From Phycisphaerales bacterium (lineage in GTDB: Bacteria > Planctomycetota > Phycisphaerae > Phycisphaerales > UBA1924), in contig JAJDDD010000022.1 in the NCBI GenBank assembly GCA_029260495.1, forward strand, positions 1-49,777: DNA of 49,777 nt. The letters are read 5' to 3'. The notes below the pieces were generated by a model that did not search any database, was not told the origin of the DNA, and worked only from the letters and a program-made list of their open reading frames with translations. Shown in pieces: positions 5,322-49,777 of the stretch (position 1 is its first letter; each line of letters opens with the position of its first letter). The translations under genes and the position numbers were made by a program.

Positions 5322-5630
5322 GGCCCATCACCCATCAACCTGAACTCGGGCGAGCCGGAAAACATACCCACGCCGCCCCTCCCCTTCAAGTGCTCGGACG
5401 CACCGCAGTCAAAAGACCCCCGCTTTGGCTCATCTTCTCGTACGCCCACAAACTCGCCAAAAGACACCACAATCGTCATTCGAGCGCCAGGTCGGCCGGC
5501 TCTCTGCCGCTGCCGTCCCGGAAGACCTTGGATTTTGGGGTGGCGTTACACTTTGACAAAGAAAGGCCTGGCAGCGGAGCCGAGGAGCCGGATCGAGTTC
5601 AAATGGGACATATCAGCTGAAATCACCATT
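5322..5630. other. Intergenic region between tRNA-Thr and the AlkD-like gene
   Basis: About 310 nt separate two divergently oriented units. Short open frames cross it, but none has a recognisable product. It presumably contains the promoters of the tRNA-Thr/tuf unit (minus) and of the alkylation-repair gene (plus). Confidence 0.4.
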
Positions 5631-6296
5631 ATGACCTTGAAAGAAACCCTCACCCAGCTCGAGGCGCTCGGTGACGAGAAGAGACGCGCCCACAACATCA
5701 AAAACGGCGCCGGCGACAATCAGTTCGGCGCCAAGCTCGGCGACATCCGGAAGCTGGCGAAGAAAATCAAGACCAACCATGAGTTGGCCATGGCGCTCTG
5801 GGAGACTGGCAACATCGACGCCCAACTCCTGGCAACCCTCCTGATCAAGCCAAAGTCGCTGACCGCTGACGAAATGGACCGGATGGTGCGATCCGTCACC
5901 TTTGTGCAGGTGGCAGATTGGCTCAACTCGTATGTCGTCAAACACCACCCCGACAAGGAAACGCTTCGCCAGGGGTGGATGGCCGATGATGACCCCATGG
6001 CTGCCCGCGCTGGCTGGAGTTTGACCACCGAAAGGGTCGTCAAGAGTCCGGAAGGGATCGACCTCCCCGCGCTTCTGGAACGTATCGAGTCCGAAATGGG
6101 GGGCGCCGCTCCGGAAGTGCAATGGACCATGAACTGCTCACTTGCGGAAATCGGAATCAACTTCCCCGCCCATCGCAAGCGGGCCCTCGCCATCGGAGAG
6201 ACGTTGGGGATCTATCGCGACTATCCCTGTTCCAAAAGCTGCACATCACCCTTCGCCCCGATCTGGATCAACGAAATGGTGAGCCGCCAAGGCTAA
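5631..6296 (+). CDS. DNA alkylation repair enzyme, AlkD-like HEAT-repeat family
   Basis: This is a 221-residue protein starting at the ATG at 5631 (MTLKETL); the frame is open further upstream, but that part does not look like protein. The sequence is all helical, with HEAT-like repeats, and includes FGAKLGDIRKLAK, an N-terminal hallmark of this COG4912/DNA_alkylation family. The C-terminal tail YPCSKSCTSPFAPIWINEM is typical of the same family. Known members such as Bacillus AlkD are glycosylases removing N3- and N7-alkylated purines; the exact substrate here is not established. The gene stands alone between tRNA-Thr and the gmhB-like operon. Confidence 0.8.
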   Translation: MTLKETLTQLEALGDEKRRAHNIKNGAGDNQFGAKLGDIRKLAKKIKTNHELAMALWETGNIDAQLLATLLIKPKSLTADEMDRMVRSVTFVQVADWLNSYVVKHHPDKETLRQGWMADDDPMAARAGWSLTTERVVKSPEGIDLPALLERIESEMGGAAPEVQWTMNCSLAEIGINFPAHRKRALAIGETLGIYRDYPCSKSCTSPFAPIWINEMVSRQG

Positions 6297-6463
6297 ACCG
6301 AATCCGCAATCAAGACGATCGTGCCGGCCATCGTGAGACAACTGATCGGATTGAACATTCGCAATAATGAGCTATTGACCGTCGCCCCATCACCCAGGCC
6401 ATCGCCCCACACCCCATCCAACTTTCTCGTCTACCCCCAATCCCGCTGCTATCCTCACCTCCT

Positions 6464-7039
6464 ATGCCCTGCGCCGTCTTTCTCGATCGTGATGACACCA
6501 TCATTCACTGCCGCTCCGTCACCGAAGATGGGGATCTCGGCGACCCTTCTCTCGTCAAGCTCATCGACGGCGTCCCCGAGGCCTGCGCCAAGCTCGCCAA
6601 AGCCGGTTTTAAACTCATCGTCATCTCCAATCAGGGCGGCGTCGCGCGAGGCGCGTACACCGAAAACGACGTGAACCTTGTCCACGATGAGGTCAATCGC
6701 CAACTCAATGGCCTCATCGACCATTTCTATTTCTGTCCCTTCCACCCCAAAGGCGCTGTCGCTGCCTACCGCCGCGAGCATCCCTCCCGCAAGCCCCATC
6801 CCGGCATGCTCTGGGCTGCACACAGCGACCACCGCATCGACCTCAAACGCTCCTGGATGGTTGGCGACGCTCTCCGTGACTGTCAGGCAGGCCGAGCCGC
6901 TGCCTGCGAAACCGTGTTGATCTCAAACGAAAAACCCACTGGCACAGACGCTTCCTTCGTCGATCACGTCGTCCCTGATATCACCGCTGCTGCTCGCATC
7001 ATCCTCAAGGCACAGAAAGCGCAGGGAGCGCCGGCGTGA
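6464..7039 (+). CDS. gmhB: HAD-family phosphatase, GmhB-like (heptose bisphosphate phosphatase)
   Basis: This is a 191-residue HAD-IIIA phosphatase. Motif I is FLDRDDT (Asp8 and Asp10, nucleophile and acid/base); motif II is ISNQGG (Ser55); RKPHPGM supplies the lysine of motif III; and VGDALRD (Asp135) is motif IV. GmhB removes the 7-phosphate of D-glycero-D-manno-heptose 1,7-bisphosphate during LPS heptose synthesis; histidinol-phosphatases share the fold. The zinc loop has the first pair (CPFH, residues 91-94), but the later CxC is missing (EHPSRK). The stop overlaps the start of the next gene (GTGA), and a heptosyltransferase follows in the same operon, which favours the heptose role. Confidence 0.8.
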   Translation: MPCAVFLDRDDTIIHCRSVTEDGDLGDPSLVKLIDGVPEACAKLAKAGFKLIVISNQGGVARGAYTENDVNLVHDEVNRQLNGLIDHFYFCPFHPKGAVAAYRREHPSRKPHPGMLWAAHSDHRIDLKRSWMVGDALRDCQAGRAAACETVLISNEKPTGTDASFVDHVVPDITAAARIILKAQKAQGAPA

Positions 7040-34172: not shown

Positions 34173-34808
34173 ATGTCTCAACTCGCTAAGAGTCTGATTC
34201 CGAGCGTTCTGATCGCGCCGATTGCCGCTATTGCGCCTGCGTCGGCCGCCATGATGACCTTCGAGCACGAAGCCAGGCTCACAGTGCCGGACGGCGGCTT
34301 CGCATCGTTCATCGCAGATGTCAGCGGCATCAATGGCATCGTCACGGATGTGGATGTTGAGTACAGCGTGTGGACCACGAACAACATTGCTGACTACGAC
34401 ATCGTACTGCGGCACCCCAATCTCACTCGCTCGCTCGTCGCCAGCGATCTTCAGTTCTTCGGCGGATTCGGGCAAACCCGTTTTGTCATTGATGACGACG
34501 CGCCGCCTCTCCCGAGTTCCCTCTCCAATCCGTCCGGCCAGACCTTTACCGGCCGCCCGACAGACTATGACTTCGTAAACGACATCGATCCCTTCGGCGA
34601 GGCGTTGCCGCTGAGTATGTTCAACGGCCAGGACCCCAATGGGATCTGGGTGCTCGTCATCACGGACGACTTCGACACCCCGGGGCAGGACTTCACCAGC
34701 CAGTTCGAGAACTTCCGACTGACGATCACCTACGACCCAATCCCCGCGCCGGGCGCCGCCGCCACCCTTCTCTGCGCCAGCGCGATCTGCCTGCGACGCC
34801 GCAGGTGA
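34173..34808 (+). CDS. Exported protein with P/Homo B-like domain and PEP-CTERM-like tail
   Basis: This is a 211-residue protein with an N-terminal signal peptide (hydrophobic stretch about 9-25, cleavage after APASA). A beta-sandwich domain follows, resembling the proprotein-convertase P domain (DVDVEYSVWTTNNIADYDIVLRHP, first part; then FNGQDPNGIWVLVITDDF near the end, like the usual NGxWxLxVxD). The end is IPAPGAAATLLCASAICLRRRR, the same PAPGA + helix + Arg cluster as the protein at 26171. It is probably exported and sorted by an exosortase-like enzyme. AGGAA stands 3-7 nt before the ATG. It is a single gene between the ion operon and the six-gene operon. Confidence 0.75.
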   Translation: MSQLAKSLIPSVLIAPIAAIAPASAAMMTFEHEARLTVPDGGFASFIADVSGINGIVTDVDVEYSVWTTNNIADYDIVLRHPNLTRSLVASDLQFFGGFGQTRFVIDDDAPPLPSSLSNPSGQTFTGRPTDYDFVNDIDPFGEALPLSMFNGQDPNGIWVLVITDDFDTPGQDFTSQFENFRLTITYDPIPAPGAAATLLCASAICLRRRR

Positions 34809-35404: not shown

Positions 35405-36838
35405 GTGCAAATACAAAACCTGATCGACGGAGCCTGGGTAGGAGCCTCGGATAGCAGCAGCCTTCGCGTCGTCAACCCCGCGCGGGATGAGGTCATTGCC
35501 GAGGTTCCCTCTGTGGGAGTTGCGGAGACCCGGTCGGCGATCGACGCCGCGTGGCGGGCGCGCGTGGCGTGGGCTTCCAGGACCGCCGGTGAACGTGGCG
35601 ATTTGCTGTCCGCGCTGGCCGGCCTGATGCACCGCGACGCCGACAGACTGGCCGCCCTGATGACCTCCGAGCAGGGCAAGCCGCTTGCGGAGGCCCGAGG
35701 CGAGATCGCGTACGCCGCATCTTTTCTTAGCTGGGCCGCAGAAGAGGGCAAACGCCTGACCGGCGACATCATCCCTGCGTCGGCCCCAGACAAGCGCATC
35801 CTCGTGCTCCGCCAGCCGGTGGGCGTGACGGCCATTATTACACCCTGGAACTTCCCGGCAGCGATGATCACGCGCAAGTTGGGCCCGGCGCTCGCAGCGG
35901 GATGCACTGTCGTGATCAAGCCGTCCGAGTTGACGCCGCTCTCGGCGCTGGCGATTGGCGAACTTGCCTGCGAGGCGGGCATTCCCGATGGGGTAGTCAA
36001 CATCATCACGGGCGAGGCGGGCGCCATCGGTGACGTTCTGTTCGACGATGATCGGGTGCGGAAGCTCTCGTTCACCGGTTCGACCCGGGTCGGGCAGATG
36101 CTGATGTCCAAGGCGTCGAAAAACCTGCTGCGCCTCTCGCTCGAGCTGGGCGGGCACGCCCCGTTCCTGGTCTTCGATGACGCGGATATCGGCCAGGCAG
36201 TCGGAGCCGCGATCGCTTGCAAGTTCCGCAACGCCGGGCAGACCTGCATCTGCGCGAACCGGTTCTACGTCCAGGACGGCGTCTACGACGAGTTCGCAGC
36301 GCGGTTCGCAGAGGCGATCGAGAATCTAACCGTCGGCGATGGCGCGCGCGAGGGCGTGCAGGTCGGCCCACTTATCAACGACGCTGCGGTTGAGAAAGTC
36401 GAATCACATGTCGCGGACGCGCGGTCGCATGGGGCGAAAGTTACCGTCGGCGGTAAGCGAGTTCACCCCAAGGGCCTGGCTGATCGGTTCTACGCGCCGA
36501 CTCTTATTAAAGGAATGACGCCCGACATGGTCCTCGCCCGGGAGGAGACTTTCGGCCCGGTCGCGCCGGTCGCCCGATTCACCGAGGAGCGCGAGGCGAT
36601 CGAGCTTGCAAACGCCTCGGAGTATGGGCTTGCGGCCTATTTCTTCACCCGCGACGCCTCGCGCCTGATGCGCGTCGCCGAGGCGCTAGAGTACGGTATT
36701 GTCGGAGCCAACGACGGCGGGCCCTCGACAGCCCAGGCGCCGTTCGGCGGCGTGAAGCACTCCGGCTTTGGGCGCGAGGGCGGGCGGTACGCGATGGATG
36801 AGTACTCCGAGATCAAGTACATCTCGTGGCAACTCTAA
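35405..36838 (+). CDS. gabD: NAD(P)-dependent aldehyde dehydrogenase, succinate-semialdehyde dehydrogenase type
   Basis: This is a 477-residue ALDH from GTG 35405, preceded by AAGAAGG; this gives the usual family length. Catalytic residues are visible: Glu247 in LSLELGGHAP and Cys281 in FRNAGQTCICANRFYVQ. The cofactor region TPWNFPAAMI and FTGSTRVG are also present, and the C-terminus FGGVKHSGFGREGG is typical of the GabD/SSADH group. It should oxidise a short amino- or carboxy-aldehyde to the acid; succinate semialdehyde is the best guess, with 4-aminobutanal or glutarate semialdehyde as alternatives. First gene of the six-gene operon, 31 nt before the aminotransferase. Confidence 0.88.
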   Translation: MQIQNLIDGAWVGASDSSSLRVVNPARDEVIAEVPSVGVAETRSAIDAAWRARVAWASRTAGERGDLLSALAGLMHRDADRLAALMTSEQGKPLAEARGEIAYAASFLSWAAEEGKRLTGDIIPASAPDKRILVLRQPVGVTAIITPWNFPAAMITRKLGPALAAGCTVVIKPSELTPLSALAIGELACEAGIPDGVVNIITGEAGAIGDVLFDDDRVRKLSFTGSTRVGQMLMSKASKNLLRLSLELGGHAPFLVFDDADIGQAVGAAIACKFRNAGQTCICANRFYVQDGVYDEFAARFAEAIENLTVGDGAREGVQVGPLINDAAVEKVESHVADARSHGAKVTVGGKRVHPKGLADRFYAPTLIKGMTPDMVLAREETFGPVAPVARFTEEREAIELANASEYGLAAYFFTRDASRLMRVAEALEYGIVGANDGGPSTAQAPFGGVKHSGFGREGGRYAMDEYSEIKYISWQL

Positions 36839-36869
36839 CAAGACAAGAGCAGCGGTTCAGGAGCAATAG

Positions 36870-38192
36870 ATGTCCAGGAGCGACGATTTTATCCAGCGGC
36901 GCGAGCGAGTCGTGTGCCCGGGGGTCAGCCGCATGTCCGACCTCACGGTCGCGAGCGCGCAGGGTGCGATGTTCACCGACCTCGATGGTCGAACGTTTAT
37001 TGATTTCGCTGGCGGCATCGGTGTGATGAACGTGGGTCATTGCGACGAGGAAGTCGTCCGGGCGATCCGCGAACAAGCGGGCTTGCTTCTGCACACGAGC
37101 ATCCACGTTGCGACGTACGAGCCATACGTCGAACTGTGCGAGAAGCTCGTTGAGTTGCTGCCACACGGCACGCGCACGAAAGCGATGCTGGTCAACACTG
37201 GCGCCGAAGCGGTCGAGAACGCGATCAAGATCGCGCGTCAGGCCACCGGGCGTGCGGGTGTGATCTGTTTCACTGGCGCGTTCCACGGGCGGACGCTGCT
37301 GGCGAGTTCGCTCACATCGAAAGTGAGCTACAAAATGGGGTGCGGGCCGTTCGCACCGGAGGTTTACCGGCTGCCTTACCCGCTTGTCCGCCAGCACCGG
37401 GGCGATAGCGAAGAGGACGTGTCGCGGCGCGAGTTGCATCGCCTGCGGGGCGCTCTCCATGACACGGTCGAGCCGGGAAACGTCGCGGCGATCATCCTCG
37501 AATTGGTGCAGGGCGAGGGCGGGTTTAACGTCGCGCCCAGGGCGTACATCCGCGGGCTGCGCGAGCTGTGCGACGAGCACGGCATCGTTCTCATCTTCGA
37601 CGAGGTGCAGAGCGGGTTCGGGCGCACCGGGCGGTGGGCGGCGTACGAGCACTACGGCGTCACGCCTGACCTCTCCACCTGGGCCAAGTCTCTGGGCGGC
37701 GGGCTGCCCATCTCCGCGGTCATCGGGAAGGCCGAGGTCATGGACCGCACATCGCCCGGCACGCTGGGCGGGACGTATGGCGGCAATCCCGTCGCGTGCG
37801 CCGCGGCCCTCGCCACCATCCGGCAGATGGAATCGCTCGACCTCAACGGGCGCGCCGAACAAGCGGGCGCTCGCATCCGCGAACGGTTCGAAGCAATCGC
37901 AGCCCGCGTGCCTGAGATGACGGATGTCCGAGGCCTCGGCGCGATGATGGCGATCGAGTTCTCCAGCAACGGCGACCCGGCTCACCCGGACGCGCCGTTG
38001 GTCAAGAGCATCATCGCGACCTGCCGCGATAACGGGCTGCTCGTCATCCCGGCGGGCGTAGACGGCAATGTGATCCGCGTGCTCGCCCCGCTGGTGGTAT
38101 CGGCTGCGGATCTCGACCGCGGGCTTGATATCCTCGAAGAAGCGATCACAACACACACCAAGCAGCCGGCGCGTGTCGGTTCTGAAGGGTAA
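36870..38192 (+). CDS. gabT: Class III PLP aminotransferase, 4-aminobutyrate aminotransferase type
   Basis: This is a 440-residue fold-type I aminotransferase. The PLP lysine is Lys273 in TWAKSLGGGLPISAVIG. Other class III landmarks are NTGAEAVENAIKIAR, CFTGAFHGRTLLA, LIFDEVQSGFGRTG and GGTYGGNPVACAAAL. This group moves the terminal amino group of GABA, putrescine-derived intermediates or other omega-amino acids to 2-oxoglutarate or pyruvate, producing a semialdehyde for the dehydrogenase encoded just upstream. Annotation as GabT is by motif and context; an ornithine- or putrescine-type specificity is possible. It is followed after only 4 nt by the amidohydrolase gene. Confidence 0.87.
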   Translation: MSRSDDFIQRRERVVCPGVSRMSDLTVASAQGAMFTDLDGRTFIDFAGGIGVMNVGHCDEEVVRAIREQAGLLLHTSIHVATYEPYVELCEKLVELLPHGTRTKAMLVNTGAEAVENAIKIARQATGRAGVICFTGAFHGRTLLASSLTSKVSYKMGCGPFAPEVYRLPYPLVRQHRGDSEEDVSRRELHRLRGALHDTVEPGNVAAIILELVQGEGGFNVAPRAYIRGLRELCDEHGIVLIFDEVQSGFGRTGRWAAYEHYGVTPDLSTWAKSLGGGLPISAVIGKAEVMDRTSPGTLGGTYGGNPVACAAALATIRQMESLDLNGRAEQAGARIRERFEAIAARVPEMTDVRGLGAMMAIEFSSNGDPAHPDAPLVKSIIATCRDNGLLVIPAGVDGNVIRVLAPLVVSAADLDRGLDILEEAITTHTKQPARVGSEG

Positions 38193-38196
38193 CCCC

Positions 38197-39171
38197 ATGC
38201 ATCCATTCGCCGTCGCTGGTCTTCAGCTAAACATCTCCGGTCGACAGTCCAATCTGCCTCACTTGTGCGACCGCATTGAGATGCTTATGCATTTGTACCC
38301 GTGGGTGCAGATGGTGCTCGTCAGCGAGTTGGCGACGTTCGGCGGGTGGACCGGCAACGCCGTGCCTCTGCCCAGCGAGGTCGAAGAGACATACCGCAGG
38401 CTCGCGGCCAAGCATTCGATCTGGCTCGTGCCGGGATCGCTTTACGAGCAGACCACGGGCGGGATTTACAATACGGCGCCCGTGATCAACCCAGCTGGCG
38501 AGGTGATCGCGCGCTACCGCAAGATGTTTCCGTTTATGCCCTACGAAACCGGTGTCGAATCAGGCTCCGAGTTCTGCATTTTCGACGTGCCCGACATCGG
38601 CCGATTCGGGGTCAGCATCTGCTACGACATGTGGATGCCCGAGACGACGCGCACGCTCGCGGCGATGGGCGTTGAAGTTATCCTGCACCCGACGCTCACC
38701 GGCAGCATCGACCGCGACGTTGAGCTCTCGATCGTGCGCGCGACCGCGGCGATGAACCAATGCTACGTCATCGACATCAACGGCATCGGCGACGGCGGCA
38801 ATGGCCGCTCGCTGCTCGTCTCACCCACGGGGGATGTGCTTTATCAGGCGGGAAGCAATGAGGAAATGCTCCCGATCGAGCTCGATCTCGACCGGGTCCG
38901 CCGCTCGCGCGAAGTCGGGCTGAAGGGGCTCGGCCAGCCGCTCAAGAGCTTCCGCGACCGCGTCGTGGAGTTCCCGGTGTATGACCGCAGTTCGGGCGTC
39001 GCCGCGTATCTCGACACGCTTGGCCCACTCGTGAAAATGGCGCGCGGCTCCCGGGCCGGTATCGCAACGCCTGCGGACGTTGCCTCGCCCGAAGCCCCCA
39101 CCGCCCAAACGCCGGCGCCAGTTGCGGCTCCTGAAGTTGGCGTTTCCCCTGCTGAACCTGGAACCGCGTAA
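38197..39171 (+). CDS. Nitrilase-superfamily carbon-nitrogen hydrolase
   Basis: This is a 324-residue protein. The catalytic triad of the superfamily is in place: Glu44 (VLVSELATFGG), Lys109 (RYRKMFPFMPYE) and Cys142 (VSICYDMWMPE). Members hydrolyse amides, carbamoyl groups or omega-amides (aliphatic amidase, N-carbamoylputrescine amidase, omega-amidase). The substrate cannot be read directly, but its neighbours point to an amide of an amine or amino acid. After the catalytic domain (about residue 280) comes a Pro/Ala-rich tail (about 40 residues) of low complexity. It starts at ATG 38197, and its TAA overlaps the ATG of the decarboxylase (TAATG). Confidence 0.87.
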   Translation: MHPFAVAGLQLNISGRQSNLPHLCDRIEMLMHLYPWVQMVLVSELATFGGWTGNAVPLPSEVEETYRRLAAKHSIWLVPGSLYEQTTGGIYNTAPVINPAGEVIARYRKMFPFMPYETGVESGSEFCIFDVPDIGRFGVSICYDMWMPETTRTLAAMGVEVILHPTLTGSIDRDVELSIVRATAAMNQCYVIDINGIGDGGNGRSLLVSPTGDVLYQAGSNEEMLPIELDLDRVRRSREVGLKGLGQPLKSFRDRVVEFPVYDRSSGVAAYLDTLGPLVKMARGSRAGIATPADVASPEAPTAQTPAPVAAPEVGVSPAEPGTA

Positions 39172-41924
39172 TGCCACCATCTGATTCTGCTGCATCACGC
39201 TCGCCTGATCCCTACAGCGCGCCGCAACTGCGGCTCGACACGTGGAACGATCTCCAGACACGGTGCGCATGGCTGAGGGAGTTCAGCCGTGAGAAGAGGG
39301 ATCTGACAGAGCCTCGGGCGCTCGTCGCCGAGAGCTTGGCAAGACTGCGCACATTCGAGGCGTTCTGGGCCTTCCCCGGACCGGACCGCATGTCAAAGCT
39401 GACCGCGCTGCTCGAGCATGGCGCGTACACCGATCTCGCTCACGAGGCGCGCGAACTCGCCCGGCTGTTGGTTGGCGACGCCTACCGCCAGCGCAACGCG
39501 AGCCCGCATGCGGCGAGTCGCGCTGAGTCGCATGCCGATGGCAAGAGAGATTCACCGAACGCGCCCGTCAACATCGGCAAACCGTATTTTGAGGTGCTCG
39601 TTGTTGACGGGGTCGACGGGTACGACCATGAGGAAGTCCGCGACGGGTTCCGGACGTGCCGACGAGACACCGACGAGTTTGTGTATGACCTGGTCACCGT
39701 GCCCTCGCTCGAAGACGCGCTGATCGCGGTGCAGTTCAACTGGACGATCCAGACCGTCTTCCTTCGCTACAACTACGGATTCCGCACCGAACATCAGGAC
39801 GACGCCTTGCGCCGATATCTTGATGTGCTGGCTCGGGAGGCGATGCCAACATGCTTCGGGCTCGATCGCAGCGTGGAACTTGCCAAGCAAATCAAGAAAC
39901 TCCGTCCAGAGATCGACCTGTTCCTCGTCACCGATGCGCCGCTCGATCGGGTGGCGGGCAACCTGGGCACGAACTTCCGGCGTGTGTTCTACCGGCTGGA
40001 ACAACATATGGAGCAGCACCTGAGCATCCTCAAGGGGATCCGCTCACGTTTCGAGGCGCCGTTCTTCGACGCGCTGCGAAAGTACAGCGCCAAGCCAACC
40101 GGTGTCTTTCATGCGCTGCCCATTGCTCGCGGGAAGTCGATGAGCAGCGGGCACTGGGCCAAGGATCTGCTCGAGTTCTATGGACCGAACATCTTTATGG
40201 CCGAGACATCGGCGACCAGCGGCGGGCTCGATTCTCTGCTCCAGCCCAAGGGGCCGATCAAGCGGGCGCAGGATAATGCTGCCCGCGCTTTCGGCGCTCG
40301 CCAGTCGTACTTTGTCACCAACGGCACGTCCACCGCCAACAAGATCGTCGCGCAGGCTATGATCCGGCCGGGCGATATCGTCCTCGTGGATCGCGACTGC
40401 CACAAGTCGCACCATTACGCGCTCGTGTTGGCAGGGGCAATGACGGTTTATCTGGATTCGTACGCGTTGCCGCAATACTCGATGTACGGGGCCGTTCCGC
40501 TCGAGGAGATCGAACGCCAGCTCCTTGATCTCAAGGCGGCGGGCAAGCTCGATCTCGTCAGAATGCTGATCCTGACCAACTGCACGTTCGACGGCCTGAC
40601 GTACGATCCCGAACGCATCATGGAACGGGTGCTGGCGATCAAGCCCGACATGATCTTCCTCTGGGACGAGGCGTGGTATGCCTACGCGCGTTTCAGTCCG
40701 ACGCTTCGGCGGCGCACCGCGATGGACGCGGCGCGCCGACTTCGGGCCAAGTTCCGATCGAGTGAATACAAAGCCGCTTTCGCCTTGGGTGACGCCGCGC
40801 CGGATGCGCCCGACGGCGGGCGCCCGATGGTGGACCCCGACCTCGCCCGCGTTCGTGTATACGCAACACAGTCAACACATAAGACGCTTACTTCGCTGCG
40901 CCAGGGCTCGATGATCCACGTCTACGACGAAGATTTTGAACAGAAGGCTTCGGACTCGTTCCACGAAGCCTTCATGACTCACACGTCAACGTCGCCCAAT
41001 TACCAGATTGTCGCCTCGCTCGACGTCGGCCGGCGTCAGGTTGAGCTCGAGGGCTTCGAGATGGTCGAGCAGACGATCGGGCTCGCGATGACCCTCCGCC
41101 AGCGCGTCAGCGAGCATCCCGACATCGCCCGATTCTTTTCTGTGCTGCGCCCGGCGGACATGATCCCTCCCGAGCATCGCCCCTCGGGCCTCGACTTCTA
41201 CTACGACAGTGAGCACGGATGGGGGCAACTCGACCGCGCATACCGGATGGATGAGTTCACGCTCGACCCAACGCGCGTGACGCTCTACATCGGCGGCACG
41301 GGCATGGACGGCGACACCTTCCGCCACCTGCTGATGGATAAGTATGACATCCAGATCAATAAGACCTCGCGCAACACGGCGTTGTTCATGCCCAACATTG
41401 GCACCACCCGCGGTGACATCGCTTACCTCGTCGGCGTGCTCGTCGAGATCTCGCTCGACATCGCTGATCGGCTCTCGGTGGAGAGCGACTCCGGGCTCGC
41501 GCGCCACTCAGCCCGCGTGGATTCGCTGGTGGAGGGTCCACCACTGCCCAACTTCAGCCGGTTCCACGACGCGTTTAAGCCCGACACCGCTCCGACGCCC
41601 GAGGGAGACCTTCGGCGTGCTTACTTTCTGGCATACGACGACGAGAACATCGACCTGATCGGGCTCGATCGTGGCACGCTCGCAGCGATCAAGGACGGGC
41701 GCGAGTACGTATCGGCTGCCTTCGTCACTCCTTACCCGCCAGGGTTCCCCATCCTGGTGCCCGGACAGGTGCTCAGCGCCGAGATCATCGCGTACCTGCT
41801 CGCCCTGGACGTCAAGGAGATTCACGGGTACGACCCCTTGAAGGGGCTCCGTGTATTCACCGAGGAGGCGCTCGAACGTGCTGCGGCAGGCGAACTCACT
41901 TTCATCAACACCGAAAGGGTGTGA
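39171..41924 (+). CDS. Orn/Lys/Arg decarboxylase family protein, extended form (917 residues)
   Basis: This is a fold-type I PLP decarboxylase. About 150 extra N-terminal residues of helical and low-complexity sequence precede a CheY-like wing domain (about 150-300, FEVLVVDGVDGYDHEEVRDG). The PLP domain follows (TSATSGGLDSLLQPKGPIKR, FVTNGTSTANKIV, VDRDCHKSHHYAL, LWDEAWYAYARFSP) with the cofactor lysine at Lys571 in QSTHKTLTSLRQGS. A C-terminal domain closes the protein. E. coli AdiA, LdcI and SpeC are about 710-755 residues, so this is clearly longer. The reaction is probably decarboxylation of ornithine, lysine or arginine to a di- or polyamine; which one is not decided. Start overlaps the previous stop, and the next gene begins 3 nt after the stop. 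Confidence 0.88.
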   Translation: MPPSDSAASRSPDPYSAPQLRLDTWNDLQTRCAWLREFSREKRDLTEPRALVAESLARLRTFEAFWAFPGPDRMSKLTALLEHGAYTDLAHEARELARLLVGDAYRQRNASPHAASRAESHADGKRDSPNAPVNIGKPYFEVLVVDGVDGYDHEEVRDGFRTCRRDTDEFVYDLVTVPSLEDALIAVQFNWTIQTVFLRYNYGFRTEHQDDALRRYLDVLAREAMPTCFGLDRSVELAKQIKKLRPEIDLFLVTDAPLDRVAGNLGTNFRRVFYRLEQHMEQHLSILKGIRSRFEAPFFDALRKYSAKPTGVFHALPIARGKSMSSGHWAKDLLEFYGPNIFMAETSATSGGLDSLLQPKGPIKRAQDNAARAFGARQSYFVTNGTSTANKIVAQAMIRPGDIVLVDRDCHKSHHYALVLAGAMTVYLDSYALPQYSMYGAVPLEEIERQLLDLKAAGKLDLVRMLILTNCTFDGLTYDPERIMERVLAIKPDMIFLWDEAWYAYARFSPTLRRRTAMDAARRLRAKFRSSEYKAAFALGDAAPDAPDGGRPMVDPDLARVRVYATQSTHKTLTSLRQGSMIHVYDEDFEQKASDSFHEAFMTHTSTSPNYQIVASLDVGRRQVELEGFEMVEQTIGLAMTLRQRVSEHPDIARFFSVLRPADMIPPEHRPSGLDFYYDSEHGWGQLDRAYRMDEFTLDPTRVTLYIGGTGMDGDTFRHLLMDKYDIQINKTSRNTALFMPNIGTTRGDIAYLVGVLVEISLDIADRLSVESDSGLARHSARVDSLVEGPPLPNFSRFHDAFKPDTAPTPEGDLRRAYFLAYDDENIDLIGLDRGTLAAIKDGREYVSAAFVTPYPPGFPILVPGQVLSAEIIAYLLALDVKEIHGYDPLKGLRVFTEEALERAAAGELTFINTERV

Positions 41925-41927
41925 TTC

Positions 41928-43481
41928 ATGGGCTCAGGACGACCGCCAACCATATCCCCAACGCGCAAGCGCAAGCAGCTCGCCTCGGCGACCCGCCCTC
42001 TGACATCCGACCACGCGAGTGAGGGCGAGCAGCGCCGCCTCCGGGGCATCTCCGACATCCGCCGATTCTTCTACCGCAATACCGAGCCGGTCTACTTCAT
42101 CAGCGCTACCCCGTTCAACCTGCTGGGCATGGACGAGTGGGTCCGTGGGTTCAGCTATATCAATGCGATCGACTGTTTCGACGGACAACACCCCAACGTG
42201 TTCGTGCCACCGGAAATCGAGCATGAGCCGTGGACCTCGATCGAAGACATCAACAACTACCTGCTGTCGCACCCCGCGGTTGCTGAGTTCATGAAGCAGC
42301 GCGGCGAAGGGGGCAAGGCCGTGTTTCTGATGTTCGACGAGAAGACGGAGGCGCTGTGCGAGAAACTCGGGCTCGAAGTCTGCTTCCCCACTGCTGAGCT
42401 GCGCAACAAGATTGATGACAAGGTCGAGACAACCCGCATCGCCGATCGCGCCGGTGTCGAGTCCGTGCCCAACATGCTCGCCAAGATCGATTCATACAAG
42501 ACCCTTCGGACCGTCGCATCCAAACTGGGCGATGACCTGGTTATCCAGACTGCGTACGGCGACTCGGGCCACACGACGTTCTTTGTCTCGACCGAGTCGG
42601 ACTTCGAGAAGCACGCCGCCGACATTACCGAGGCGCCCGAGGTCAAGGTGATGAAGCGCATCCGGTGCCGCGGCGCCGCCCTCGAGGCGTGCGTCACCAA
42701 GCAAGGCACCATCGTGGGTCCACTGATGACCGAACTCGTCGGGTTCAAGGAGCTCACGCCCTACCGCGGCGGGTGGTGCGGCAACGAGGTCTTCGCAGGC
42801 GCCTTTGACGCCACGACCCGCGAAGAGGCGCGCGACGCCGCGATGAAGTTCGGCGACGAGCTCGGGGCGCAGGGGTTCTGCGGGTACTTCGAGCTCGACT
42901 TTCTCACCGATCTCGACGCCGGCAAGGTCTATCTCGGCGAGTGCAACCCACGGATCACCGGGGCAAGCTCCATGACCAACCTATCGTCGTTCGCCCACGC
43001 CGACGCCCCCCTGTTCCTCTTCCACCTTCTCGAGTGGATGGACGTCAAGTCGGAGTTCGACGTCGAAGATCTCAACACACGGTGGTCGGACCCCGAGAAC
43101 ATCGACTCCTGGTCTCAGCTGGTGATGAAGTACACCGGAGACGATGTCCGCCACATCACCGCGGCGCCGCCGTCGGGGCTTTGGGAAATCGACTCGTCCG
43201 GCAAAATCCATCACGTCCGGATGCAGACCCACCGGCGCACCGTGCAGCACGAAAACCGGGCCTTCTTCCTGCGCATCTCGGGCGAGGGCGACTACCTCTA
43301 CAACGGCGCGGACCTGGGCATTCTCGTCAGCCCCGGGCGGTTCATGACAGACAACTTCGACCTGACCGAACGCGCCAAGGCATGGACGCGCGGCATCCAG
43401 TCGTTCTACACTGGCGCCCCAGTCGCCCCCGAGCAGAGACACGATGCGGGGGTTGAGCCTGGGGGGTTCAAGCTTCTATGA
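41928..43481 (+). CDS. ATP-grasp family ligase (biotin carboxylase-like fold)
   Basis: This is a 517-residue protein. Residues about 50-170 look like an N-terminal alpha/beta domain (PVYFISATPFNLLGMDEWV). The ATP-grasp core follows: NKIDDKVETTRIADRAGVES, DDLVIQTAYGDSGHTTFFV (the flexible nucleotide-binding loop) and GYFELDFLTD with YLGECNPRITGASS (Mg2+ ligands Glu338 and Asn340). The biotin-carboxylase and D-ala-ligase neighbours are absent, so an amide-forming ligase is more likely than a carboxylase. Such enzymes activate a carboxylate as acyl phosphate and join it to an amine or thiol. Translational coupling to the decarboxylase (3 nt) and the C45 amidase (ATGA overlap) suggests it acts on the amine product. 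Confidence 0.8.
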   Translation: MGSGRPPTISPTRKRKQLASATRPLTSDHASEGEQRRLRGISDIRRFFYRNTEPVYFISATPFNLLGMDEWVRGFSYINAIDCFDGQHPNVFVPPEIEHEPWTSIEDINNYLLSHPAVAEFMKQRGEGGKAVFLMFDEKTEALCEKLGLEVCFPTAELRNKIDDKVETTRIADRAGVESVPNMLAKIDSYKTLRTVASKLGDDLVIQTAYGDSGHTTFFVSTESDFEKHAADITEAPEVKVMKRIRCRGAALEACVTKQGTIVGPLMTELVGFKELTPYRGGWCGNEVFAGAFDATTREEARDAAMKFGDELGAQGFCGYFELDFLTDLDAGKVYLGECNPRITGASSMTNLSSFAHADAPLFLFHLLEWMDVKSEFDVEDLNTRWSDPENIDSWSQLVMKYTGDDVRHITAAPPSGLWEIDSSGKIHHVRMQTHRRTVQHENRAFFLRISGEGDYLYNGADLGILVSPGRFMTDNFDLTERAKAWTRGIQSFYTGAPVAPEQRHDAGVEPGGFKLL

Positions 43482-44467
43482 CCGGGCGAGCCGTTCCGAC
43501 GGCCATCGCGTTCCGGAGTCTCAACGACGAGCCCGCTGGGTCGGCGCTGGCGGGGATATTCGCCCGGTACTGGCCCGCGTACCAACGCTGGATGCGCCGC
43601 GCGAATCCGCCGACCGAAGTTCGGGGCGCCGACCAGATCCGCGCCCACATGCCCGAGTTGCTCCCAGTCTACGAACGCCTGCTCGAGGTCTTTGGCGGCG
43701 GCGACGAGATCGCATCGTTCTTGTCGCTGTACAACCCGCCGCGCGTCGTGCGCGGGTGCTCGCAGATCGTCATCGATGACGACGGCCCTGTACTGCTCCG
43801 CAGCTACGACCACCATCCCGCACTCCTTGATGACCTTGTGCTCCGAAGCAACTGGACTGGGCAAAGCGCCATTGTGATGGCCGACTGCCTCTGGGGCGCG
43901 CTTGACGGCGTCAATGAGCAGGGGTTGGCGATTGCGCTCGCCTTCGGCGGGCGGGATGCCGAAGGCCCGGGGTTCGCTGCCCCGCTTCTCACGCGGTATG
44001 TCCTTGAGACGTGCGCCACCGTTGACGATGCCAAGGACGCCCTCGCGCGCGTCCCGGTGTACATGCCTTACACATTCGTCGTCGCCGACGCGGCTGGGGC
44101 GTTCGTCACTGCTTATACCGGTCCAGACGCGCCGGCCCGGTTCGTGACGCGGCGCGCCTCCACCAATCACCAGTCTACGGTGGACTGGCCCGCGTACTGC
44201 CAACACACGCAAAGCGTGGAGCGCCTGGAGAAGCTTGAGTCGCTCATGGCGGAGCCGGCATCCGTGTCTGACGCGGTGGACTCATTCCTGCGTCCGCCGC
44301 TGTGGCGGAGTGACTACACCCTCGCATCTGGAACGCTGTACGTCGCCGAGTACCGTCCCATCGCGCGCACCATGACCCTGCACTGGCCCGGAAGGCAGGA
44401 ACTGTTCACACTTGACGACTTTGAAGAGCGTGCGTTCACCGTGGATCTCCCGCAGTCCACCACATGA
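43478..44467 (+). CDS. C45-family (acyl-CoA:6-APA acyltransferase-like) Ntn amidohydrolase
   Basis: This is a 329-residue protein. NPPRVVRGCSQIVIDDDG contains a Gly93-Cys94 pair matching the autoproteolysis site of C45 enzymes, so Cys94 would become the N-terminal nucleophile. Further family features are VLLRSYDHHPALLDDLVL, GALDGVNEQGLAIALAFGG and the Asn/His region FVTRRASTNHQ. Family members hydrolyse or exchange amide bonds (isopenicillin N acyltransferase, choloylglycine-like hydrolases). It has no signal peptide and is probably cytoplasmic. It is the last gene of the six-gene operon and starts within the stop of the ATP-grasp gene. Confidence 0.82.
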   Translation: MTGRAVPTAIAFRSLNDEPAGSALAGIFARYWPAYQRWMRRANPPTEVRGADQIRAHMPELLPVYERLLEVFGGGDEIASFLSLYNPPRVVRGCSQIVIDDDGPVLLRSYDHHPALLDDLVLRSNWTGQSAIVMADCLWGALDGVNEQGLAIALAFGGRDAEGPGFAAPLLTRYVLETCATVDDAKDALARVPVYMPYTFVVADAAGAFVTAYTGPDAPARFVTRRASTNHQSTVDWPAYCQHTQSVERLEKLESLMAEPASVSDAVDSFLRPPLWRSDYTLASGTLYVAEYRPIARTMTLHWPGRQELFTLDDFEERAFTVDLPQSTT

Positions 44468-44567: not shown

Positions 44568-47285
44568 ATGCAAACAATACACACCGAAACAGTCCGCACG
44601 CTTCTTGACCTACTGGACCGCACAATTGCCTCGTCAGGCTCGGACATTCAGTGGGAGCTTGTTCAGCGGGCGGCGGGGTGCTGTGAACGGCCAGACGGCG
44701 CTGGTTTGGACGAAGCCTCTGAACTGATAGGCGACTTGCCGAACGAAGAGATCGCGGGCTTGCTTGCTTGTCTCACGCTCCGATTCCACCTGGTGAATAA
44801 GGCAGAGCAACTGACAATCGCGCGCATCAACCGCGATCGCGAGCGATCCGCAAACGCGGACCATCCGAAACCCGAGAGCATCGCCGAAGCTGTCCATCGA
44901 CTGATGGTCACCGGAAGGACATCAGACGACGTCACGGCGCTTTTAGGCCAAATCGATATCCAGCCCACGTTGACGGCGCACCCGACCGAAGCTCGTCGTC
45001 GGACGGTGCTTCGCAAACAGCAAGACATCGCGCTGATCGTTGAGCGGCTCCGTAACGGACAGCCCACACCGGCAGAGCGCCGCAGTGCTGAAACGAGGAT
45101 AGAGCAGCTCATGCTCATCCTGCTTGGGACGGACGATGTGCGCTCCGAGCGACTCCATGTGCTTGAGGAGGTGCGCAACGGGCTTTTTTTCCTCACCGGC
45201 TCGCTTTGGGACACCATCCCAAAGCTCTATGACGATCTCCGTGATGCGCTCCACAGCTACTACGGCATGGACGCGCCCGACCTGCCGATACTCATTCGCT
45301 ACAGATCATGGATCGGGGGCGATCGTGACGGCAATCCGCGAGTCACTCCAGAAATTACCAAGCAAACATTTGATCTGCTTCGCGCCGAAGCCATCACACT
45401 TCAAACTCAGGCGCTCTGGGAGTTGCGCAATCACCTGAGTTTGTCGGACAGGCGTGTTTCCATCAGTGAAGAGTTCCAAAGATCAATCGAAAACGATCTC
45501 GCTGATTTTCCGAATCTCGTTGCTGACGACGCGCTGCGCCACCTCGACCACGAGCCATTTCGAATCAAGATCCATGCGATGCAGGCCAGGATGGCTTCAC
45601 TCATGACAGAACAGCCAATGTACGATGCTGAGACGCTTCGGGCGGATCTTGAGCTGATCGCGCGGGCGCTCCATGAAGCCGGCATCACGGGCGCCGCGAC
45701 GCAAGGACTGCTAAGCGATCTTATTGTGAGGGTGCGCACGTTCGGTTTGCACCTCGCAGCGATTGATATCCGTCAACACAGCGCCAAGCACGAAGCGGCG
45801 GTGGCCCAGTTGCTCCGCTTGGCGGGCGTGAACAAGTGCTATTCCTCGATGACCGAATCGGACCGGATTGCGATTCTCACGAGCGAACTCGCGACACCTC
45901 GACCTCTGACCCGACCCGAGGCAGCGCTGCCCGAAGAATCTGCTGATGTGCTGGCGACATTACGAGTCATGCGGCAAGCAGCAGCGCGAGACCCCGCCAG
46001 TATCGGCGCGGTCGTGGTGTCGATGACGCATGAAGTCTCAGACATGCTCGAGGCTCTTGTCCTGATGAAAGAAGCAGGGCTGTACCGCATTCTGCCCAAT
46101 GCGGTCGAGAGCGATGCGGACCTCGTGCCGTTGTTCGAAACTGTGGACGACCTGGAGCGATCTGGATCGCTCATGGACGAGCTCTACCAGAATCCTGCCT
46201 ACAAAGCTCAACTCCAAGCCAGGAAGAATTTCCAGGAAATCATGCTTGGATATTCCGACAGCAACAAAGATGGCGGCTACACCATGGCGAACTGGTCCCT
46301 GCACATGGGGCAAGCCACTCTCGCCAAGAGCGCCGCAGCGCATGGCGTCACGCTCCGTCTGTTCCATGGACGCGGAGGAACCGTTGGGCGCGGCGGCGGA
46401 CGCGCCAACCGGGCAATCCTCGCGGCGCCACCGGTCGCGCGATCTCCCAAGCTCCGCGTCACCGAACAGGGAGAAGTTATTAGTTTCCGCTACGCCCTAC
46501 CCGAAATCGCTCGTCGACACCTTGAACAGATCGTCAATGCTGTCCTGCTCGGCGCTCCCTCGGGTGCATCCAATACGCCTGCGGAGATTGCCGTCACAAT
46601 GGATGCGTCTCGTGTAGAGCTCATGTCGCGCATCGCTTCGGAGTCGATGTCGCACTACCGTGAACTCGTTGAGCACGAAGGTTTCTGGGACTGGTTCGCC
46701 AGCGTCACACCCATCGATCAGATCAGCGGGTTGCCAATCGCTTCCCGCCCGGTTTCCCGTGGAGGTGGCGGCGTCGGGCTCGACAACCTGCGCGCCATCC
46801 CCTGGGTCTTTGCCTGGACACAGATCCGCGCCAACGTGCCCGGCTGGTACGGATTGGGCGGCGCACTTCAGCCTGAGATCGATCAGGGCAATCTCGACAC
46901 GCTCCGCACGATGTACGCAGACTGGCCATTCTTCGAAACTCTGATCGACAACGCCGAACTTGAACTCGTCCGAACTCGCCCTGAGGTGCTTGCGCGATAC
47001 GACCGCATCGCCGGAAAGTCCTCCGTGTTCCTCGGCTGCATCCGCGCCGAGTACGAGCGGTCTGTCAACTGTATAACACAGATCACCCAGCGAGGCCTGC
47101 TCGAATCACGCCCCGCAATCTGCGATACTATCGAGATGCGCAACCCGCACGCCGACCTAATCAACCTGCTCCAGATCGAACTCCTGCGCAGGCACCGAGC
47201 CGGTCGCATGGGAGGTGAACTCGGGCAACGCCTGCTTTTTCTCAGCATCAACGGCATCGCTGCTGCAATGCAGAGCACGGGTTAA
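44568..47285 (+). CDS. ppc: Phosphoenolpyruvate carboxylase
   Basis: PEPC adds bicarbonate to phosphoenolpyruvate to give oxaloacetate, an anaplerotic step. At 905 residues it is full length. The catalytic histidine is His138 in TLTAHPTEARRRT; other landmarks are RSWIGGDRDGNPRVTPEITK, LGYSDSNKDGGYTMANW, FHGRGGTVGRGGG (the glycine loop) and SRPVSRGGG. It ends ingIAAAMQSTG, near the usual NGIAAGMRNTG. It follows the C45 gene by 100 nt; read-through from the six-gene operon is possible, but the gap makes a separate promoter likely. Confidence 0.97.
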   Translation: MQTIHTETVRTLLDLLDRTIASSGSDIQWELVQRAAGCCERPDGAGLDEASELIGDLPNEEIAGLLACLTLRFHLVNKAEQLTIARINRDRERSANADHPKPESIAEAVHRLMVTGRTSDDVTALLGQIDIQPTLTAHPTEARRRTVLRKQQDIALIVERLRNGQPTPAERRSAETRIEQLMLILLGTDDVRSERLHVLEEVRNGLFFLTGSLWDTIPKLYDDLRDALHSYYGMDAPDLPILIRYRSWIGGDRDGNPRVTPEITKQTFDLLRAEAITLQTQALWELRNHLSLSDRRVSISEEFQRSIENDLADFPNLVADDALRHLDHEPFRIKIHAMQARMASLMTEQPMYDAETLRADLELIARALHEAGITGAATQGLLSDLIVRVRTFGLHLAAIDIRQHSAKHEAAVAQLLRLAGVNKCYSSMTESDRIAILTSELATPRPLTRPEAALPEESADVLATLRVMRQAAARDPASIGAVVVSMTHEVSDMLEALVLMKEAGLYRILPNAVESDADLVPLFETVDDLERSGSLMDELYQNPAYKAQLQARKNFQEIMLGYSDSNKDGGYTMANWSLHMGQATLAKSAAAHGVTLRLFHGRGGTVGRGGGRANRAILAAPPVARSPKLRVTEQGEVISFRYALPEIARRHLEQIVNAVLLGAPSGASNTPAEIAVTMDASRVELMSRIASESMSHYRELVEHEGFWDWFASVTPIDQISGLPIASRPVSRGGGGVGLDNLRAIPWVFAWTQIRANVPGWYGLGGALQPEIDQGNLDTLRTMYADWPFFETLIDNAELELVRTRPEVLARYDRIAGKSSVFLGCIRAEYERSVNCITQITQRGLLESRPAICDTIEMRNPHADLINLLQIELLRRHRAGRMGGELGQRLLFLSINGIAAAMQSTG

Positions 47286-48267: not shown

Positions 48268-49777
48268 TTACGAACACGCTCCCCACGCCCCGAGTAGGAG
48301 CGCGAGGTCGGCGGCGTTGGTGATGTTGTCGTTGTTGAGGTCGCCCTGGGAGTTGAAGGGTCGCCAGGAGCCGAGCAGGAACATGAGGTCGGTGTGGCCT
48401 ACCACGCCGTCGCCGTTGAGGTCGGCGGCGCAGAGGGCGCGCGATTCATTCAGCAGGACGCGCACCTGACTCATTGCGCCGCCGGCGCCCTTTCCTCCTT
48501 CATCGTCGCGAGCGGCGCTGATCATGATTCCGCTTGTTGCGCTGCGGGCTGCTCCGATGTTCGCGTTGACGGTGATGAGATCGTTCTCGCCGTCGCCATT
48601 CACATCGGCTGCGAGCACAAACGTCGGCGCTGAGCCCACAGCGAAGTCCTGCGGCGCCGCGAACTGAAGCTGGCCCGTCGTCGGATCAAGATCATTGCGG
48701 ATGATGCGGACCTCGGGATTCGCATCATCGGTCACGAAGGCGATGTCCCGGTCGCCGTCGCCCTCCAGATCAACCAGCGCGATCGATTCGGGATTCGCGC
48801 CCACAGGCAGCGTGACGGGCGGCGAGAACAAGCCGGCGCCTTTATTCAGAATGATCGACATGGACTGCGTGCTGGCGTTGGCAATGATCAGATCAAGCTT
48901 CCCCTCTTTGTCGTTGTCGATGTCCTCGGGACAGACGACGTCCTGCTCATCATCCATCGCGATGGTGGTGCGCGAGCCGAAGCCGCGCAGGACGCCGTCA
49001 TTGAAGAGGATGGTCAGCTTGTGCGAGGCGCCGCTGGTGAGGGCGAGGTCCGGACCGTTCATCTGATCGAAGTCCCCCGCCGCGATCCATGTGGGTGAGG
49101 GCGCGACATCGAAGGGTGAGCCGGCCATCTCGGTGAACATCGCCAGCCCGTCGCCGAGCAACACAGTCGCGTTGTTGTCGAGCTGGTTGGCGGACGCGAT
49201 GTCGAGTTCGCCGTCGCTATTAAAATCTGCGACGGTGAGAGAAACGGGCTCGCCGCCGACCGCAACGGGCGAAGCGGAGGCTTCGGTGAGGATCAGGTTG
49301 TCCATCGCGTCGAGGCCTTGCGTCAGGATGATGGAGAGTGTGTCGTCGCCTTGGTTGGCGACAGCGATGTCAAGGAAAGCATCATTGTCGAAAAGACCCA
49401 CAGCCAGGGAGCTGGGCTCGCGGCCGACTGTCCTCTGAAAAGTTCCGCCGGAGAAGTTGAGCCACGCGCCATCGCCATCGACGCCGCCGTTGAGCAGAAC
49501 GAGGATGGCGCCGGGATCGAGAGGCGTCGCGCCGGGGAAGGCGACGACGAGATCGACGCCGTTGGTTTGATCGAAGTCCCCCGCAGCGACGGCGGTCGCT
49601 TCGTCATCGACATCGAAGTTGGTCGCTTCGTCGTCGAAGTCGATCAGATCGTCGAGTTCAGCGACGACTATCTCGACGGTTTCACCCGCAGCGGCGCCGC
49701 GCGCTGCGGCATCGGCGCCCTCATCTTCGCGCCCGGACCCGCTGTTGCGGTTGTAGACGACGCGCATGAAGAGATCG
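48268..49777 (-). CDS. FG-GAP/VCBS repeat surface protein with dockerin-like C-terminus (partial)
   Basis: The frame is open to the right edge of the window. An ATG at 49767 is available, but no signal peptide follows it, so the true start probably lies outside. At least 499 residues are present. At least seven FG-GAP/VCBS blades are visible (VAAGDFDQTNGVDLVVAFPG, LAVGLFDNDAFLDIAVANQG, LTVADFNSDGELDIASANQL, VLAADVNGDGENDLITVNAN). The end has two dockerin-like loops (CAADLNGDGVVGHTDLMFLL and QGDLNNDNITNAADLALLLG) and GAWGACS, close to the tail of the protein at 483-1820. It is probably a secreted, calcium-binding structural protein. Confidence 0.78.
   Translation of the reverse strand, partial: DLFMRVVYNRNSGSGREDEGADAAARGAAAGETVEIVVAELDDLIDFDDEATNFDVDDEATAVAAGDFDQTNGVDLVVAFPGATPLDPGAILVLLNGGVDGDGAWLNFSGGTFQRTVGREPSSLAVGLFDNDAFLDIAVANQGDDTLSIILTQGLDAMDNLILTEASASPVAVGGEPVSLTVADFNSDGELDIASANQLDNNATVLLGDGLAMFTEMAGSPFDVAPSPTWIAAGDFDQMNGPDLALTSGASHKLTILFNDGVLRGFGSRTTIAMDDEQDVVCPEDIDNDKEGKLDLIIANASTQSMSIILNKGAGLFSPPVTLPVGANPESIALVDLEGDGDRDIAFVTDDANPEVRIIRNDLDPTTGQLQFAAPQDFAVGSAPTFVLAADVNGDGENDLITVNANIGAARSATSGIMISAARDDEGGKGAGGAMSQVRVLLNESRALCAADLNGDGVVGHTDLMFLLGSWRPFNSQGDLNNDNITNAADLALLLGAWGACS

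Follow-up and report, generated by a model that had tools for sequence, protein, structure and literature searches.

A conserved bacterial gene module of a long decarboxylase, an ATP-grasp ligase and two amidases, with a possible role in GABA-forming catabolism

Introduction

What pathway would require a long decarboxylase, an ATP-grasp ligase and two dissimilar amidases beside enzymes of the γ-aminobutyric acid (GABA) type? The question is raised by a six-gene operon at positions 35405–44467 of a 49,777-nucleotide stretch of DNA from a Phycisphaerales bacterium of the Planctomycetota (assembly GCA_029260495.1, contig JAJDDD010000022.1), termed here the window. The source genome is 3.2 Mb in size and 97% complete. 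In order, the genes encode an aldehyde dehydrogenase (ALDH), a class III aminotransferase (AT), a nitrilase-superfamily amidase (NIT), a 917-amino acid decarboxylase (DEC), an ATP-grasp ligase (GRASP) and an amidase of the C45 type (C45). A preliminary description of the window proposed that the operon performs chemistry equivalent to that of the Escherichia coli putrescine utilization (Puu) pathway with unrelated enzymes, DEC making an amine that the ligase then protects as an amide.

The module is real and conserved, and its role is most likely catabolic. NIT, DEC, GRASP and C45 constitute a conserved core, and AT and ALDH are its changeable partners. A pathway to GABA and succinate via an amino acid with a protected side chain is put forward here tentatively, with a likelihood somewhat short of even, from what the gene sequences suggest.

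A conserved core of four genes

All six open reading frames (ORFs) are on the + strand: ALDH at 35405–36838, AT at 36870–38192, NIT at 38197–39171, DEC at 39171–41924, GRASP (517 amino acids) at 41928–43481 and C45 (329 amino acids) at 43478–44467. The gaps between them are 31, 4, −1, 3 and −4 nucleotides. ALDH starts with the GTG at 35405, as in the preliminary description; the mechanical ORF opens at 35303. ORFs and Pfam matches agree with the genes and gaps of that description, and catalytic motifs are in place in all six proteins. The residues are C281 and E247 of ALDH and K273 of AT, together with E44, K109 and C142 of NIT, K571 of DEC (in STHK), E338, N340 and R342 of GRASP, and C94 of C45.

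Loci for comparison (L-numbers) came from a ligase search, represented by the best 80 of 128 relatives selected by likeness to the window's own GRASP, from six family searches that sampled groups evenly, and from plasmid records. They contain 176 distinct ligase genes, and 126 remain for neighbourhood counts after 50 with short flanks are left out. Duplicates were removed only where exact over a 300-residue core, and near-identical strains stay among the 126. A neighbour is a gene within 7.5 kb of GRASP. Genes were called with a home-made codon-score caller, and starts and small genes may err. Taxon names are record titles; several records are metagenome-assembled genomes, and that of L107 is marked UNVERIFIED_ORG.

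C45 is found near 119 of the 126 ligase genes, DEC near 110, NIT near 109 and all three near 96, and these counts are unchanged once remote matches are barred. In 106/126 cases DEC precedes GRASP on the same strand at a distance of no more than 200 nucleotides, and in 114/126 C45 follows GRASP equally closely. At 23 of the 126 loci, each of the six window genes has a relative. Among the best 80 of 128 relatives, the record titles include Planctomycetota, Gemmatimonadetes, Myxococcales, Acidobacteria, Bacteroidota, Calditrichaeota, Alpha- and Betaproteobacteria, Competibacteraceae and others. The gene set thus recurs in several phyla, and the arrangement is therefore beyond chance.

The ligase family is present in 19 of 392 Planctomycetota genomes (source genome counted), in 8/249 genomes of the family and 3/250 of the order around Cupriavidus, in 9/337 of the class and 13/249 of the order around Bradyrhizobium, and in 53/244 of the order around Poseidonocella. 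A DEC profile was run over 80 Planctomycetota genomes, 18 with the ligase and 62 without (20 from the ligase survey and 42 by handle number). It found DEC in 18/18 of the former and 0/62 of the latter (Fisher 2.8e-18, uncorrected for kinship). The preliminary description had named a gene-neighbourhood search as a check on its single-pathway idea, and homologues are indeed found together, in support of one conserved pathway. Adjacency and co-occurrence therefore mark NIT-DEC-GRASP-C45 as the unit, with AT and ALDH as partners.

Pairwise distance correlations over 46 loci are 0.92 for GRASP-DEC, 0.82 for GRASP-C45, 0.80 for GRASP-NIT and 0.63 for GRASP-AT. Some comparisons run counter to so clean a division. 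The NIT-C45 correlation (0.59) is below that of NIT-AT (0.72) and does not separate core from partner. In a 29-locus succinate-semialdehyde dehydrogenase (SSADH) subset, which also takes in remote ALDH matches, GRASP-C45 (0.71) is below GRASP-AT (0.76), with GRASP-ALDH at 0.60. In addition, NIT-GRASP-C45 stands without DEC or an alternative set at L225, L228 and L248.

A second ligase subfamily, with 44–46% identity to the window GRASP, is found at L211, L213, L215, L217, L224, L228 and L248. It has C45 and/or NIT close by and mostly no DEC; the exception is L226 (45%), which has DEC. In the order of Bradyrhizobium, four genomes have both subfamilies.

The ligase and the two amidases

GRASP matches the NF005096/PRK06524 family, named 'biotin carboxylase', with 735.4 bits (cutoff 684), and Pfam CPSase_L_D2 weakly (23 bits; cutoff 19.8). 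The ATP-grasp core residues Glu288, Asn290 and Arg292 of biotin carboxylase correspond to GRASP E338, N340 and R342, which are invariant in 27/27 rows. This raises the question of whether GRASP is a carboxylase, as the family name implies. It could be a free-standing relative of biotin carboxylase acting on an arginine metabolite, with carboxylation of a guanidino or ureido nitrogen and hydrolysis of the product to GABA by NIT and C45. Its profile matches at E ≤ 0.01 are consistent with this, the 40 distinct solved sequences among them belonging to biotin carboxylase, alone or in fusions, to PurK or to carbamoyl-phosphate synthetase; Foldseek ranks biotin carboxylase first on the GRASP model, and genes of an arginine type are found among the neighbours. 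The side chains of the E. coli enzyme argue otherwise. Glu296, the catalytic base of biotin carboxylase, aligns to GRASP Ala346 (hhalign, 21% identity over 181 columns), and its functional residue Lys159 aligns to Gln207. Carboxylation would also leave the IAT-like amidase described below without a role, and this explanation appears highly improbable.

PylC is an amide ligase that acts on the lysine side chain. In comparisons with the GRASP structure model (predicted local distance difference test, pLDDT, 87), PylC, PurK, biotin carboxylase and others are tied at Z 22–24, and ligases of the PylC and glycinamide-ribonucleotide-synthetase type score as well as carboxylases do. The fold was thus set aside as decisive for function. 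GRASP is no less likely to be an amide-making ligase than a carboxylase.

The C45 protein scores 131.8 bits against NF040521 (cutoff 85) and 108 bits against the AAT/C45 family. It is predicted to be an amidase or acyltransferase of the Ntn (N-terminal nucleophile) type; its nucleophile, C94, is invariant in 23/23 rows and is aligned with residue 1 of penicillin V acylase. Isopenicillin N acyltransferase (IAT) removes an aminoadipyl amide. It is the best structural match of the C45 model (pLDDT 91), with Z 29.4 and an rmsd of 3.1 over 300 aligned residues, the next family being at 22.9. IAT (MEROPS C45) shares the Cys nucleophile with C45; identity is 14%, and the window differs in having no β-lactam context.

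NIT (PF00795 CN_hydrolase, 115 bits) has the Glu-Lys-Cys triad of the nitrilase superfamily at E44, K109 and C142, invariant in 21/21 rows. It is not assigned to N-carbamoylputrescine amidase, as its score against the AguB model TIGR03381 is 73.7 bits (cutoff 410.25).

The decarboxylase and the order of steps

DEC belongs to the Orn/Lys/Arg decarboxylases (PF01276 OKR_DC_1, 262.6 bits; gathering cutoff 27), and K571 is the pyridoxal 5′-phosphate (PLP) lysine of its S-x-H-K motif. The closest solved relative by sequence is 9n0n/9n0o (E 4e-237, DEC residues 19–907). PDB entry 9N0O, with 9N0N and 9N0P, is Rv2531c of Mycobacterium tuberculosis, a homologue of DEC over its full length, the activity of which has not been clarified according to a passage in a 2026 review (PMC12910592).

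In E. coli lysine decarboxylase, CadA Glu526 is described, in a passage of PMC5607190, as the postulated substrate binder. At this position, which is Thr571 in AdiA, DEC has no acidic residue but N730 (23/23 rows). At the position of CadA Pro530 and AdiA Asp575 it has R734 (22/23 rows), where Rv2531c has Ile. The replacement of the CadA and AdiA residues by N730 and R734 fits a non-cationic side chain in the DEC substrate, and the predicted pocket leans against a free cationic one.

Operons that lack DEC bear on the order of steps. Six are related to the window operon, two on plasmids (L102 and L107) and four in genomes (L210, L212, L214 and L216). In these, GRASP and C45 are located between ALDH and a D-amino acid dehydrogenase (DadA), and the operons also hold a racemase and a 2-keto acid decarboxylase resembling 5-guanidino-2-oxopentanoate decarboxylase. 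The latter scores 737 bits in L102 (cutoff 500), and its type suggests an enzyme for a δ-N-substituted 2-oxopentanoate. The NIT proteins of L102 and L107 are true relatives, with 53 and 52% identity. DEC is present elsewhere on the L107 plasmid; it was not found on the L102 plasmid, the chromosome not having been searched. In all six operons the racemase resembles ornithine racemase and is fused to a domain of the arginase family (15779–17566 in L102, the one copy used for family scans). Arginase activity of the fusion was considered and rejected, as the metal motifs appear lost when the sequences are read by eye.

Cupriavidus necator A5-1 has NIT-GRASP-C45 with gabT, gabD, a thiamine diphosphate-dependent enzyme and a PuuC-like ALDH (689 bits; cutoff 850). 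AstB and AstA genes, of the arginine-succinyltransferase pathway, are close by. No DEC was found in this genome, the only hit being partial and to an enzyme of the canonical type.

In the preliminary description the amine came first. DEC would make agmatine, putrescine or cadaverine, GRASP would acylate it, AT and ALDH would oxidize the other end and C45 would free GABA. The family of DEC is that of amine-forming enzymes for Orn, Lys and Arg, and other signs agree with such an order. Two genes in the source genome are of the agmatinase type, its PF00491 matches include none of the arginase type, and it lacks any match to PF02784 (Orn/Arg/diaminopimelate-type decarboxylases), which 13 of 14 control genomes have. 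Agmatinase-like genes, near 7/126 ligases, adjoin the DEC-type operons L146 and L256. A PuuR-like regulator is found in some operons, and C. necator has a histone-deacetylase-family gene besides the PuuC-like ALDH. However, decarboxylation in the six DEC-less operons would give an aldehyde, so that an amine-acting ligase would have no substrate there and the presence of GRASP and C45 would be unexplained. Asn in place of CadA Glu526 points the same way, and no polyamine transporter was recognized beside the core, although none was searched for by name. The amine-first order is considered unlikely. Provided that both types of operon use GRASP alike, the aldehyde product argues that GRASP probably acts before decarboxylation, and this is the chief ground for placing protection first.

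The GABA end of the pathway

The window ALDH (PF00171, 559 bits) resembles succinate-semialdehyde dehydrogenase and narrowly misses the TIGR01780 model, with 642.0 bits (cutoff 646.35). Likewise, AT (PF00202, 413 bits) resembles GABA transaminase and is just below the TIGR00700 cutoff (488.3 against 506.65 bits). At a threshold of at least 45% identity, a GabT/PuuE-like AT is found near 54/126 ligase genes, and an ALDH similar to that of the window or to GabD is found near 29/126; with remote matches the counts are 55 and 38. Nine ALDHs were picked from other loci, those of L052 and L063 being on the opposite strand. Two are of the GabD type and exceed the TIGR01780 cutoff, four are of the PRK09406 SSADH type and three are lactaldehyde/SafD-like, the last two groups being below cutoff. 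Two types of SSADH beside one core argue for conversion of GABA via succinic semialdehyde to succinate. The proposal that an amide ligase and amidase surround GABA-type enzymes is plausible.

The regulators in the neighbourhood agree with such an end point. Those of the MocR type are near the core at 9/126 loci. For the helix-turn-helix-cupin regulator, PuuR is the sole NCBIfam match at E ≤ 1e-25 (136 bits; cutoff 211). A second AT, of the PRK07483 type, is near GRASP at nine loci, all from the genome sample of the order of Poseidonocella; the three scanned score 744–765 bits (cutoff 485). Such an enzyme would supply an AT that is missing from most operons, as considered below.

Lysine, which would yield C5 rather than C4 products, was also considered as substrate. 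The GabT/SSADH-type partners lean to C4, but DavT and DavD are close relatives of enzymes of these types.

A proposed pathway and its substrate

The pathway proposed here builds on computed evidence for the genes, for their linkage and co-occurrence, and for folds and catalytic residues. GRASP would first use ATP to protect the side chain of a five-carbon amino acid as an amide; the likeliest reaction is the joining of an acyl group such as γ-glutamyl to the δ-amine of ornithine. DEC would then take off the α-carboxylate to give an N-acyl-putrescine, AT and ALDH would oxidize the free amine end to N-acyl-GABA, and C45, through Cys94, would cut the amide, releasing the acyl group and GABA, which GABA transaminase and succinate-semialdehyde dehydrogenase would convert to succinate. 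In the DEC-less variant, racemase, D-amino acid dehydrogenase, 2-keto acid decarboxylase and ALDH would replace the decarboxylation and oxidation steps, and protection would prevent cyclization of the keto acid and the aldehyde. For NIT, the weakest part of the scheme, possible substrates are a second amide or an intermediate that has been deaminated in error.

Several observations weigh against this scheme. The acyl group is a guess. The pocket residues of DEC rest on a remote alignment, and AdiA likewise lacks the Glu of CadA. The DEC-less operons can readily be read as arginine catabolism, which needs no ligase, and five of the six hold an agmatinase-like gene. Their racemase, as represented by L102, matched only the ornithine racemase model (E ≤ 1e-30) and falls short of its cutoff (393 bits; cutoff 480). 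With agmatinase-type and no arginase-type matches in the source genome, the supply of ornithine is in doubt. Two ATs and two ALDHs seem to be needed, but most operons have one of each. Finally, a GltI-like binding protein is near 10/126 ligases (six of the ten in Accumulibacter) and genes for TAXI-TRAP transporters are near 28/126, nearly all from one order. These transport genes beside the core would point to glutamate/aspartate or dicarboxylates.

Could the substrate then be glutamate? GRASP would couple its γ-carboxyl to a recycled amine, DEC would convert the product to a GABA amide, and C45 or NIT would release GABA and free the amine, with AT and ALDH leading to succinate; without DEC, the amide would become a succinyl amide. 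This would be an ATP-driven bypass of glutamate decarboxylase, and the logic is comparable to that of BtrJ and BtrK in butirosin biosynthesis. GabT and SSADH would each be used once, which fits the operons. A side chain that is neutral or acidic would be compatible with N730 and R734, and the MocR-type regulators and transport genes agree, the latter including a DctA/GltP-family symporter near 5/126 loci. The GltI-like protein scanned, that of L100, scores 425 bits (cutoff 375), and the symporter match of L093 is below cutoffs; both genes are downstream of C45 in Betaproteobacteria. On the other hand, the DEC-less operons have ornithine-racemase-like, agmatinase-like and AruI-like genes. A carrier amine would be required in addition, and ATP would be spent where glutamate decarboxylase would do. 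Glutamate is thus judged quite unlikely.

For ornithine there are the racemase match, the decarboxylase for a δ-N-substituted keto acid and the C4 end products. The agmatinase-like genes, with the lack of arginase-type and PF02784 matches in the source genome, would favour free arginine or agmatine instead. Ornithine is ranked first as the substrate, if not by much.

Surroundings of the operon and related clusters

A phosphoenolpyruvate carboxylase gene (44568–47285) starts 100 nucleotides past C45 and was tried as a seventh gene of the operon. It is left out because it is not a recurrent neighbour of the core; among 100 loci, many of them short, the only match besides the window's own is at L029. 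The operon region is also flanked by genes for a small protein that matches no Pfam family (34173–34808) and, on the − strand, for an FG-GAP/dockerin protein (48268–49767). Signal scans found one promoter-like site (shuffle mean 1.6) and nine terminator-like sites (shuffle mean 6.3, sd 2.8); nothing stands out.

At L080 (7113–9992), DEC is in two ORFs with 216 and 671 aligned residues, possibly by frameshift. Second AT-nitrilase-ALDH clusters are found downstream on the opposite strand at L027 (14349–20269) and L030 (15240–20568), with 28–33% identity to the window genes. In a Bradyrhizobium (L074), DEC-GRASP-C45 is divergent from an adjacent gene (5433–6740, − strand) for urocanate hydratase, an enzyme of histidine catabolism, and a histidine ammonia-lyase gene is near a lone DEC on the XES5 plasmid. 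In Rhizobium leguminosarum, DEC-GRASP is carried on conjugative plasmids (L103 and L105), near nifA/fix genes in one and near ribosomally synthesized and post-translationally modified peptide (RiPP) radical S-adenosylmethionine genes in the other.

Perhaps, then, the operon serves to make and process a GABA or polyamine product that contains an amide link, an alternative that the preliminary description had also named. The rhizobial plasmid copies, with an amidase and either RiPP or nif/fix genes in the vicinity, would be in keeping with biosynthesis, as would the occurrence of NIT-GRASP-C45 by itself. However, GABA transaminase, SSADH, importers and MocR- or PuuR-like regulators recur around the core, and no exporter or tailoring enzyme was seen among the ten representatives scanned from 18 neighbour clusters. 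A biosynthetic role is therefore very unlikely.

Comparison with known pathways and implications

No description of this gene cluster was found in open-licence PMC papers. The nearest in logic is the Puu pathway of E. coli, with which it shares ATP-dependent amide protection (as proposed here), aldehyde dehydrogenation, amide hydrolysis, a GABA transaminase and, in some operons, a PuuR-like regulator. The enzymes differ. An ATP-grasp protein is found here in place of PuuA, a ligase of the glutamine synthetase type, with C45 in place of PuuD and AT in place of PuuB; the decarboxylase is within the operon, and protection probably precedes decarboxylation. E. coli PuuA, PuuB and PuuD were used as blastp queries (E ≤ 1e-12) over the ORFs of the loci, and were the best match of no ORF in the 263 loci outside E. 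coli. Traces of Puu are limited to the PuuR-like regulator and the PuuC-like ALDH of C. necator, both below cutoff. The absence of such best matches means that unrelated enzymes would do a Puu-like job, as the preliminary description had supposed. The module most likely follows a variant of the protect-oxidize-deprotect logic of Puu, carried out by unrelated enzymes and probably in a different sequence of steps.

The 2-ketoarginine route of arginine breakdown uses a racemase, D-Arg dehydrogenase, AruI, an aldehyde dehydrogenase and guanidinobutyrase. The six DEC-less operons contain a gene set of the same kind with GRASP and C45 inside it, whereas the window operon has a PLP decarboxylase and no adjoining ureohydrolase. 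In lysine catabolism, DavA, DavT and DavD are a nitrilase-family amidase, a class III AT and an ALDH that convert an omega-amino acid to a dicarboxylic acid. Compared by description, this trio is similar to that of the window but has no counterpart of GRASP or C45.

The chances appear evenly balanced that the operon represents a widespread strategy, in which the side chain would be locked as an amide by a biotin-carboxylase-like GRASP, the carboxyl group lost via an Rv2531c-type decarboxylase or a keto acid route, and GABA freed by C45. If this is correct, the name 'biotin carboxylase' of NF005096 would need correcting, and the substrate class of Rv2531c-type decarboxylases would be side-chain-amidated amino acids and not free Arg, Orn or Lys. 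The module would be a second, independently evolved answer to the problem that Puu solves, the cyclization of amino-aldehydes. It would also constitute a GABA-forming catabolic route in bacteria such as those of the order of Poseidonocella, where more than a fifth of the sampled genomes carry the ligase.

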